Source: Kribbella antiqua (GTDB lineage: Bacteria > Actinomycetota > Actinomycetes > Propionibacteriales > Kribbellaceae). Taken from it: DNA of 64,000 nt. The stretch spans positions 372,001 to 436,000 of the forward strand of contig NZ_SLWR01000008.1 in NCBI RefSeq assembly GCF_004345665.1. Reading direction: 5' to 3'. This document shows, piece by piece, positions 36,866-39,541 of the stretch (position 1 is the stretch's first letter; each line of letters opens with the position of its first letter). A model generated the notes under the pieces. The model did no database searches and was not told where the DNA came from. It saw only the letters and a program-made list of their open reading frames with translations. The position numbers and the translations under genes were made by a program.

Positions 36866-36904
36866 ACTCGCACACTGTGCGAGTGTGTCGTACAGTGTGC
36901 GAGT
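36866..36904. promoter_or_regulatory. Paired TetR operators
   Basis: Site 1 at 36866-36884 is a perfect palindrome, ACTCGCACA-C-TGTGCGAGT. Site 2 at 36886-36904 has the core TCGTACA-G-TGTGCGA, one mismatch from site 1. Their centres are 20 bp apart, about two helical turns. Site 2 overlaps the likely -10 TACAGT (36891-36896) and the GTG of the pump gene. Confidence 0.85.
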
Positions 36905-38411
36905 GACTAGTACACCGTTCGAGTCCACCGCGACCGGTCATCCGCGACGCTGGTGGATCCTGCTGATCCTGTGCCTGAGCCTGATGGTGCTGGTGGTCGA
37001 CAACACCGTGCTCAACCTGGCCATCCCGTCCCTGATGCGGGATCTGTCCGCCACCCCTGCCGACGTGCAGTGGATCATCGACGCCTACATCTTGGCGTTC
37101 GCCGGCCTGCTGCTGACAGCGGGCAGCCTGTCCGACCGGTTCGGCCGGCGGAAGATGCTGATCCTCGGTCTGGTCCTGTTCGGCGCGGCGTCGATGCTGG
37201 CCACGCTGGCCGAGACGCCGTGGCAGCTGATCCTCTGCCGCGGGCTGATGGGCGTCGGCGGTTCGCTGCTGATGCCCAGCACGCTGTCGTTGCTGTTCAC
37301 GGTGTTCCCGCCGGAGGAGCAGCGCAAGGCGATGGCCGGCTGGTCGATGGTCGCGATGCTCGGTGTCGTGGCCGGTCCGACCGTTGGCGGCGTACTGCTG
37401 AACCACTTCTGGTGGGGTTCGATCTTTCTGATCAACGTGCCGATCGCCGTACTCGCGATCATCGGGGCGCTGGCGCTGATACCGGAGTCGAAGGGTCCGG
37501 CGCGGGACGTCGACCCTGCTGGTGCGGTGCTGTCGATCATCGGGATGGCGGCGATCGTCTGGGCGATCATTTCGATCCCGGCCGACGGATTCGGCTCGGC
37601 GAAGGTGCTCGGTGGGTTGGCTGTCGGTGTGGTGGCGCTGACCGGGTTCGCCTTGTGGGAGAAGCGGAGTGAGCATCCGATGGTGCCGCTCGCGCTGTTC
37701 CGGGATCGGCGATTCAGTGGGACGAGCTTCTCGATCGTGCTGCTGTCGTTCACCGCCGGTGGGTTGCTGCTGGCCCTGACGCAGTACCTGCAATTCGTGC
37801 TCGGGTACAGCCCGCTGAAGGCCGGTCTGGCGTTGATCCCGTACGCCGTTTCCGCCGTCGTCTTCAACGGACTCGGGGCGACGCTGGGCAAGAAGATGGC
37901 GGATCGCACGCTGATCGCGATCGGCCTGGTGATCATCGCGGGCAGCTTCGGCATCCTGACCCAGGTCTCCGACTCGACCGGCTACGGCCTGCTGATCATC
38001 GGGCTGCTGGTCATGGGTGTCGGCGGTGGTCTGGCCGGTCCGGCGGCGTACACGCTGCTCATGCAGGCCGTTCCGCCGGAGCACCGGGGTGTCGGGTCGG
38101 CGATGAACGACACCGTCCAGCAAACGGGTGCCGCGCTGTCGGTCGCCGTACTGGGCAGTGTGCTGGCGGCGGCGTACTCCTCGTCGCTGCCGGACTCAGT
38201 GCCGGAGGCCGCCCGCAAGTCGATCGCGGACACGCTCGCTCTCGGCCCGGACTTCGTGGCAGCGGCCCGGCATGCCTTCACCGACGCGATGTCCATCTCG
38301 ATGCTGGTCGGCTGCATCGGCGCGGTGGCCGGTGCCGTGGTCGCCCTGGCCGTGCTGCCTCGCAAGGCGGCTGAGGATGCGGAGTTGGTCGACCAAACGG
38401 TTAATCAGTAA
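36903..38411 (+). CDS. MFS multidrug efflux transporter, DHA2/EmrB-QacA type
   Basis: A 502-residue transporter with about 14 membrane helices. Signatures: VDNTVLNLAIPSL near residues 29-41 (motif D1), WIIDAYILAFAGLLLTAG, seen as WIIDAYILAFAG, loop DRFGRRKML near 78-86, and GPTVGGVLL near motif C. These place it in the 14-TMS drug:H+ antiporter group. I chose the GTG at 36903; a -10 element ends 7 nt upstream, so the message would be leaderless. It is repressed by the divergent TetR. Confidence 0.93.
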   Translation: MTSTPFESTATGHPRRWWILLILCLSLMVLVVDNTVLNLAIPSLMRDLSATPADVQWIIDAYILAFAGLLLTAGSLSDRFGRRKMLILGLVLFGAASMLATLAETPWQLILCRGLMGVGGSLLMPSTLSLLFTVFPPEEQRKAMAGWSMVAMLGVVAGPTVGGVLLNHFWWGSIFLINVPIAVLAIIGALALIPESKGPARDVDPAGAVLSIIGMAAIVWAIISIPADGFGSAKVLGGLAVGVVALTGFALWEKRSEHPMVPLALFRDRRFSGTSFSIVLLSFTAGGLLLALTQYLQFVLGYSPLKAGLALIPYAVSAVVFNGLGATLGKKMADRTLIAIGLVIIAGSFGILTQVSDSTGYGLLIIGLLVMGVGGGLAGPAAYTLLMQAVPPEHRGVGSAMNDTVQQTGAALSVAVLGSVLAAAYSSSLPDSVPEAARKSIADTLALGPDFVAAARHAFTDAMSISMLVGCIGAVAGAVVALAVLPRKAAEDAELVDQTVNQ

Positions 38412-38420
38412 TGGTTTTCA
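38406..38420. promoter_or_regulatory. Zur/Fur-like half-matching box
   Basis: Read on the minus strand this is TGAAAAC-C-ATTACTG. The left arm and centre fit the actinobacterial Zur pattern TGAAAAT-N-ATTTTCA; the right arm fits poorly. It overlaps the MFS stop and lies 44 bp before the His-rich gene, in the right place for its promoter. I treat zinc control as a hypothesis. Confidence 0.4.
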
Positions 38421-38430
38421 TTTCTGTTAG

Positions 38431-38459
38431 GCTGCCTCCTCTTGAGCGGAGGAGGCAGC
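38431..38459 (+). promoter_or_regulatory. Hairpin sequestering the Shine-Dalgarno of the His-rich gene
   Basis: GCTGCCTCCTC (38431-38441) pairs perfectly over 11 bp with GAGGAGGCAGC (38449-38459) around a 7-nt loop. The right arm is the ribosome site GGAGGAGG of the gene starting at 38464. Without opening, translation should be blocked. There is no T-run, so it is not a terminator for the preceding MFS gene. Confidence 0.8.
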
Positions 38460-38463
38460 ACAG

Positions 38464-39015
38464 ATGTCCAACGAGCACGGTCATGGGCACGGTCATGGTC
38501 ATGGGCACGGCCACGGGCACGATCACGAGCATGGGGTCGTCGCCCGCTGGCTGGGCCGGGCCGAGCAGCGGCTGAACGACAGGTTGAAGAGCGGCCGGGC
38601 CAAGCGGCTGACCGCGCTCGGGCTGAAGGCGGCGGCGGTCACCATCCGGGCCGCCGCCTTCGTCGTCTGCCCCGGCGACGACATCGCCGCGGCCGCGATG
38701 CCCGCGGTCGGTCACTTGGCCGGCCATGATGACCAGCATCACCACGAGGAGTACGCCGTACTGCCGAAGCAACCTGTGGTCGTCGCGAGGCTCCCGATGG
38801 ATCGTCAGGTGGGCGGCCCTGACCCCGGATCGAACCCTCTGCCAAGCAAGCCGGTCGACGCGGACCCGACCGGCTGGGACGTCGCGAACCTCTACCAAAC
38901 CTTCGTCGTGGAAGGCATCGCCGCCCCAGGCTCAACGGCTCCCGCCACCCCGGATCACCGCCAGCCACCACCCCCAGCCAACCGCGCCCGGGTCGGCCCC
39001 GAAACAACCCGCTGA
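38464..39015 (+). CDS. Histidine-rich putative metal-binding protein
   Basis: A 183-residue protein starting MSNEHGHGHGHG, with eleven His in the first 23 residues as HG/HD/HE repeats. This suggests binding of zinc, nickel or cobalt. A helical basic region (RAEQRLNDRLKSGRAKRL) and a hydrophobic segment with VCPGDD near residues 65-70 follow, then a second cluster GHDDQHHHEEY near 87-97 and a Pro-rich tail. There is no clear signal peptide. The family is unknown to me. The Shine-Dalgarno is locked in a perfect hairpin and a Zur-like box lies upstream, so expression may answer to metal. Confidence 0.78.
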   Translation: MSNEHGHGHGHGHGHGHGHDHEHGVVARWLGRAEQRLNDRLKSGRAKRLTALGLKAAAVTIRAAAFVVCPGDDIAAAAMPAVGHLAGHDDQHHHEEYAVLPKQPVVVARLPMDRQVGGPDPGSNPLPSKPVDADPTGWDVANLYQTFVVEGIAAPGSTAPATPDHRQPPPPANRARVGPETTR

Positions 39016-39541
39016 CCGGGGAGCGCCACCCACCTGTTTCGGCAGGCCAGACTCCCCAAACCGGCCAGACCGAGGAACGAGCACGGGTTCTGCTGGTTCG
39101 CGGACGGTTTCCTCCCCAGGACGGGTGGCGCGGGCCGGGCGGCATCACCCGGGACTGTGCAGATCGACAGGACATATACGCCCACTGGCTGGGTTGCGGC
39201 CGATGGCGTGAGCGTAGGTGCGCCTGCCGAACGCAGACACGTCCTGTCCAAATGTCCCCTGCGCTCAGAGCATGCGCCCACAGCGCCACAGACCAGTCAG
39301 AAGTGCCGGTTACCCACTCAGGTTCCGAGGGGGTAAACCTTCCAGTTCAGGGGTCAGCGCACGAGCTTGCGGGCTGCGGAGGGAGAATCTGGGTCCGCAA
39401 CCGACGAGCGGGAGGGTCGGCGCCTGGGGTTGCGCGAGCGGACGGGAGCCGGGGTGTGTGGATGGCCGATTCACGGTTGGGGGCTGGACCTTCCTAGACT
39501 GCCTTGAGCAGTTTGTGGAACCAGCACCCGAGAGCGAGCCA
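39016..39541. other. 525-bp gene-free region with several hairpins before pheS
   Basis: No credible gene is seen. Stems: GACAGGAC (39166-39173) with GTCCTGTC (39241-39248), enclosing ACGCC/GGCGT (39178-39182/39205-39209) and GCGTAGG with CCT and ACGC (39212-39234), which together could form a three-way junction; GGTTACCC (39308-39315) with GGGTAAACC (39331-39339); TGCGGA (39375-39380) with TCCGCA (39394-39399). A TAGACT -10-like element is at 39495-39500. No T-box specifier or Phe-rich leader peptide was found. Confidence 0.45.

Follow-up and report, generated by a model that had tools for sequence, protein, structure and literature searches.

A hairpin past the stop codon of an MFS transporter gene shares its 3' arm with the Shine-Dalgarno of a His-rich protein gene in Kribbella antiqua

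Introduction

In the lysozyme gene of phage T4 (gene e), the Shine-Dalgarno is sequestered in long early transcripts, which stay silent, and free in short late ones, which are translated, according to the part of the source available to us (PMC3014915). A parallel with IS10/IS200 was set aside; the word "read-through" is absent from the excerpt of PMC8450116 that we had. A different kind of structure comes from mycobacteria, for which the available portion of a review describes "I-shaped" terminators that have no U-tract and lie no more than 50 bp from a stop codon, and names Rho-dependent termination as the dominant mode (PMC12288462). Termination by hairpins without a U-tract is disputed, as far as the excerpts at hand show. 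One paper in that review's reference list reportedly states in its title that a U-tract is required for termination.

Here we describe a junction between two genes in a 64,000-nucleotide stretch of K. antiqua DNA (the window, meaning the whole stretch that was analyzed). The original prediction for this junction was of metal-responsive control at the level of the transcript, in which a metal, a chaperone, or a protein might open a stem that buries the Shine-Dalgarno of a His-rich protein gene. It did not mention two features that are central to our analysis: the stop codon of an MFS transporter gene lies 19 nt 5' of the hairpin, and a -10-like element overlaps the hairpin's 5' arm.

Results

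The K. antiqua genome is 8.1 Mb in size, and the G+C content of the 1.64 Mb that we analyzed is about 68%. The gene order in the window is tetR (minus strand), MFS transporter, His-rich gene, pheS, and pheT, the last two identified from their own sequence without a family search, and tetR, the MFS gene, and pheS co-occur in relatives. Packed into the 52 nt between the MFS stop codon (38409-38411) and the ATG of the His-rich gene (38464) are a -10-like element, a perfect 11-bp stem, a Shine-Dalgarno, and the greater part of a Zur-type box. The features of the locus are as follows.

36894-38411, plus strand: MFS transporter gene; start codon uncertain, stop codon TAA at 38409-38411, Pfam MFS_1 with E 2.9e-56
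38406-38420, plus strand: degenerate Zur-type box CAGTAATGGTTTTCA, right half intact; includes the MFS stop codon
38425-38433, plus strand: predicted extended -10 element TGT-TAGGCT, from sequence; a TGN-TARGNT motif 7 nt past a box is also present in the relative G022
38431-38441, plus strand: 5' arm of the hairpin, GCTGCCTCCTC, from sequence and folding; overlaps the -10 element
38448-38455, plus strand: Shine-Dalgarno GGAGGAGG, from sequence; 8 nt 5' of the ATG
38449-38459, plus strand: 3' arm of the hairpin, GAGGAGGCAGC, from sequence and folding; contains most of the Shine-Dalgarno
38464-39015, plus strand: gene for a 183-aa protein with an HG-repeat N-terminus; orphan family with two clear members (dN 0.19, dS 1.6)

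The 11-bp stem burying the Shine-Dalgarno is present as originally described. Its arms form 11 perfect pairs around a 7-nt loop, with an extra wobble pair between U38442 and G38448, and the computed energy of the stem alone is -23.1 kcal/mol; a 221-nt region that includes other helices folds with a z score of -4.28. The repeat finder, with its minimum of 12, missed this stem. An Rfam search of the region returned no family near threshold (best match 20.9 bits, where the cut-off is 60; E 0.19).

We compared the stem with other gene starts in 1,641,048 bases, or 20% of the genome, consisting of the window and 80 further stretches (L095-L174). This is a non-random sample, in which simple codon-composition rules that miss many genes gave 856 starts with a Shine-Dalgarno core. 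A perfect stem of at least 8 bp covering the core was found at only one of these 856 called starts, that of the window's gene. When upstream segments were swapped among genes, the expectation was 0.05 stems of at least 11 bp per 856 starts (40 permutations, maximum 1), which scales to about 0.25 such stems by chance in the whole genome. We conclude that the stem is unusual at a gene start, yet within chance genome-wide. A looser scan returned two more stems that include both a Shine-Dalgarno core and a start codon, one of 19 bp in L118 and one of 12 bp in L154. We rejected both frames as gene starts; they look antisense because their third-position G+C (0.68 and 0.55, respectively) is below that of their own first position, and the corresponding third-position value for the window's gene is 0.83.

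We also counted where long stems fall relative to the ends of genes. Of 68 perfect hairpins of at least 11 bp (loop 3 to 8) in the 1.64 Mb, 37, including the one described here, are positioned between -4 and 31 nt beyond the stop codon of one of 787 genes called by the same kind of simple rules, which again miss many genes. Random places fall at that distance 3.2% of the time (1,026/32,400; binomial p about 3e-37). Another rule for merging neighboring stems had given 51 stems of at least 11 bp and is superseded by the count of 68. None of the 37 post-stop hairpins is followed by a T-run (at least 5 T in the next 8 bases), and under a looser gene call and reach, one of 44 post-stop hairpins (again out of 68) has one. 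The hairpin after the MFS gene fits this description, with its 19-nt distance from the stop codon and 2 T in the next 8 bases, and hence no U-tract. Since more than half of the long stems sit in this position, compared with 3.2% of random places, we conclude that the hairpin is ordinary among post-stop hairpins and that its sole oddity is the arm that it shares with a Shine-Dalgarno. A consensus scan of 38200-38700 that requires a T-run found no terminator-like site. The two relatives with the highest MFS identity, G015 (91%) and G005 (90%), have a different U-less GC hairpin 7 to 9 nt past the MFS stop codon. The long U-less hairpins clustered after stop codons (37/68 in L095-L174 and the window) could serve as a starting point for studying how transcription ends in the genus.

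The overlap between the -10-like element and the 5' arm makes the position of the transcription start important. From sequence, we predict that the His-rich gene has a promoter of its own and that its transcription would start at about 38439-38442, 6 to 9 nt after the -10 element. This candidate promoter has no clear -35, and a consensus scan for sigma-70 promoters across 38200-38700 came back empty; the bases at the usual start positions, 38439-38442, are C, T, C, and T, with no purine among them. The computed cost of opening the Shine-Dalgarno is 15 to 21 kcal/mol if the RNA begins at or upstream of 38431 and 3.0 to 4.1 kcal/mol for starts at 38439-38442. Intermediate starts cost 12 to 15 kcal/mol at 38434, where the RNA would retain a 9-bp stem, 8 to 9 kcal/mol at 38436, and 5 to 6 kcal/mol at 38438. 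In these computations, a transcript from near 38440 is without most of the 5' arm and the stem cannot form, so that opening costs about 3 kcal/mol where read-through RNA needs about 18. Even for a start at 38440, the Shine-Dalgarno is only 43 to 44% unpaired on average. Half of the hairpin, then, probably lies outside the His-rich gene's own transcript.

The partial Zur box of the original prediction was scored with a matrix derived from 71 sites that differ from a pattern at no more than one position, taken from 19 of 38 genus genomes (G000-G018; the sites listed for G019-G024 were left out). Its right half, at 14.2 bits, is intact; its left half is degenerate, and the whole site scores 3.4 bits. 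Because at least 127 places in the 1.64 Mb outscore it, one of them inside the window (counting at most 30 places per segment), the box alone is not significant, and the claim stands for the right half and is lost in background for the site as a whole. The orthologous gene in G022 has a fuller box, TGGAAATGGTTTTCG, which scores 14.9 bits, with 3 higher-scoring places in the 1.64 Mb of the window's genome. Upstream of the G022 gene, TTAATGGAAATGGTTTTCG is followed by 7 nt and then TAAGGT with TGG before it; upstream of the window's gene, AATCAGTAATGGTTTTCA is followed by 7 nt and then TAGGCT with TGT before it. The order of box, 7 nt, and TGN-TARGNT is therefore common to both genes, despite their differing upstream genes and loci. 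As regards the proposed metal link, the fuller box and identical spacing in G022 favor its Zur part, whereas the part that placed metal control at the transcript level was not supported (see Discussion).

Zur-type boxes occur in all 38 genus genomes, and elsewhere in the K. antiqua genome they are found at znuA/YibE_F, at a solute-binding protein, and at a CobW_C gene. As this genome has four FUR-family genes, we assigned Zur among them by neighborhood: one adjoins znuB- and znuC-like genes, and this group lies about 3 kb from the znuA with the Zur-type box, on the same contig. On the strength of these patterns, Zur control is plausible for the His-rich family and weakly supported for the window's gene.

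Absence of the hairpin from orthologous loci had been named at the outset as grounds for giving up the original prediction, and the one clear orthologue that we found provides such grounds. Alignment of the upstream region did not find the hairpin in G022, which has this orthologue, and it was found in none of 28 post-MFS regions of relatives, where the His-rich gene itself is absent. These 28 are what is left of 30 MFS loci after removal of the window and of L090, which has no downstream DNA; G003, G009, and a partial match in G007 gave no locus. Our search extended to 300 nt past the MFS stop codon or to pheS, and six regions (L066, L067, L081, L085, L086, and L087) have another stem of at least 8 bp, none resembling the window's. 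Among the 38 genus genomes, only the window's own contains the exact sequence of the stem core. The interval between the MFS gene and pheS, 38412-39541 in the window, ranges from 38 to 1350 nt with differing contents among the 18 loci with pheS in reach, which places the His-rich gene in a variable slot; in the five relatives compared, this interval contains nothing that matches the window's sequence between about 38360 and 39428-39461. Given that the absence from G022 concerns only one orthologue, at another locus, the stem may have a species-specific role.

The HG-repeat start of the product, claimed in the original prediction, was borne out: the N-terminus of the protein is MSNEHGHGHGHGHGHGHGHDHEHG. 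Between the window and G022, where the only clear orthologue in 38 genus genomes stands at another locus, dN is 0.19 and dS is 1.6, the latter near saturation, and this coding constraint makes it very likely that the frame is a genuine gene. Searches with the whole protein matched 21 of the 38 genus genomes, those besides the window and G022 weakly and via the HG tail; without the tail, two of the 38 matched. No clear orthologue beyond G022 was found in draws from the genus and family (38), order (391), and class (394). The order gave two matches with E values of 3.7e-6 and 6.7e-4, both at 26% identity and one interrupted by a stop, and the class gave one, at 40% over 59 residues (E 7.8e-4). 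Two short peptide patterns yielded no confirmed relative in genome contigs or viral contigs, and DNA-level matches were rejected as orthologues, being mostly HG-repeat coding DNA of other genes. Pfam and NCBIfam searches found no family, a PDB sequence search found nothing below E 0.08, and the predicted structure was of poor quality, with a mean pLDDT of 35. The protein may bind zinc.

Some observations concern the relatives of this protein and its tail. In G022, the codon aligned to the ATG is ATT (L002:2065-2067, minus strand), and there is no in-frame ATG, GTG, or TTG from the upstream stop to the His tail, so that either translation starts at an uncommon ATT codon or the sequence contains an error. 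HG tails recur, and the YibE_F gene at the znuA box carries one: a Zur-type box at L030:1501-1515 lies between znuA and this divergent YibE/F-family gene with an HG-repeat N-terminus (L030:1531-2820), and among the matches listed, a box lies 106 to 120 nt from an HG-repeat stretch in at least 10 other genus genomes. A 599-aa frame in another genus genome (L003:1444-3243) has a similar HG-repeat N-terminus and appears PHP-like by eye.

Discussion

The explanation that we propose, and whose chances we consider evenly balanced, is that this is a post-stop hairpin of the MFS gene whose 3' arm is shared as the Shine-Dalgarno of the next gene, which is read from its own promoter. The U-less hairpin would either end MFS transcription or silence read-through RNA: with its 3' arm serving as the Shine-Dalgarno of the His-rich gene, RNA reading through from the MFS gene would be untranslatable for that gene. 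The His-rich gene would instead be transcribed from the promoter whose -10 element overlaps the 5' arm, and the Shine-Dalgarno of this short transcript would be open or nearly so because the 5' arm is missing. Zinc-loaded Zur probably binds the box just 5' of the -10 element, in which case the gene would be expressed at low zinc. Termination and Zur binding are steps that we infer.

A chance or neutral stem, in which GGAGGAGG lies opposite CCTCCTC by accident within the short stretch separating the MFS and His-rich genes, is a possibility to be taken seriously, although we rather doubt it. Since a Shine-Dalgarno in a 3' arm occurs at one of 856 starts, the sharing could be accidental, and the permutation null of 0.05 per 856 starts, or about 0.25 genome-wide, agrees with this, as do the absence of the stem from G022 and from the 28 post-MFS regions and the exact occurrence of its core in one of 38 genus genomes. 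What argues against chance is the position of the hairpin, 19 nt past a stop codon, which fits a strongly enriched class.

We consider it unlikely that promoter-level Zur repression alone accounts for the metal link, with the hairpin uninvolved. G022 fits such an account, having the box and the extended -10 element without the hairpin, and so do the boxes at the znuA/YibE_F and CobW_C genes of this genome and the presence of such boxes in all 38 genus genomes, but the window's own box is a 3.4-bit site with a degenerate left half.

The original prediction, that the stem locks the Shine-Dalgarno in the main transcript until a metal, chaperone, or protein opens it, now seems very improbable. It has in its favor a very stable stem over the Shine-Dalgarno whenever the RNA has both arms, and a His-rich product. 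Against it, the hairpin is missing from G022, the region has no Rfam match near threshold, a transcript from the predicted promoter, whose -10 element overlaps the 5' arm, would be without that arm, and a perfect stem of -23 kcal/mol seems to offer no evident ligand site. A metal-sensing RNA switch is unlikely because hairpins of this kind cluster after stop codons, half of this one probably falls outside the gene's own transcript, and a relative does without it. That the inverted repeat instead serves as an operator in the DNA, bound by a repressor over the transcription start, is a reading we would hardly credit: the 29-bp palindrome does begin inside the -10 element, but an exact pattern search (exact matches only) found no second copy of the core palindrome in the 38 genus genomes, and the palindrome is absent from the G022 promoter.

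The shared post-stop hairpin that we favor allows a further, tentative suggestion, namely, that the 52-nt junction could be a double lock in which zinc-loaded Zur blocks the short, translatable transcript and the 29-nt element, besides supplying the downstream edge of the promoter and the Shine-Dalgarno, stops read-through from the efflux gene or keeps it silent. If so, the His-rich protein would be made only once Zur leaves, and the logic of T4 gene e would be found in a chromosomal metal gene.

Comparison with known systems helps to place the element. Like metal-sensing riboswitches, a class that we cite from general knowledge, it puts RNA structure over the Shine-Dalgarno of a possible metal-binding gene, but unlike them it has no Rfam match near threshold and is not kept in G022. 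If our explanation is right, it carries a warning that a Shine-Dalgarno inside a strong stem is not necessarily a riboswitch where a promoter overlaps the 5' arm. The locus resembles the actinobacterial Zur regulon, as far as the available part of its description goes (PMC6103462), in its 7-1-7 type of box, and elsewhere in this genome znuA, CobW_C, and an HG-tailed YibE_F gene stand at such boxes; the locus differs in that the target is an orphan His-rich protein and the window's box is half degenerate. Our explanation would also point to a pair of His-rich proteins without a Pfam or NCBIfam family that are possibly under Zur.

With the mycobacterial I-shaped terminators, in what we have of that review (PMC12288462), the hairpin shares a perfect GC-rich stem less than 50 nt past a stop codon and the lack of a U-tract; it differs in that its 3' arm doubles as the next gene's Shine-Dalgarno, and its role as a terminator is putative. 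The original prediction knew of no described system with such a layout, but T4 gene e, in the portion of the source at hand (PMC3014915), has a stem that sequesters the Shine-Dalgarno and whose 5' strand lies in the promoter, so that only RNA from an upstream promoter forms the stem, as is predicted here. By comparison with T4, the K. antiqua case, which is computed only, concerns a bacterial chromosomal gene with another type of promoter and a stem 19 nt past the stop codon of another gene. Taking the gene e layout together with the U-less terminators of mycobacteria, as these partial sources present them, we read the element as a putative terminator or insulator against MFS read-through, by which a closely placed downstream gene would be shielded from its neighbor's transcription while keeping its own control.
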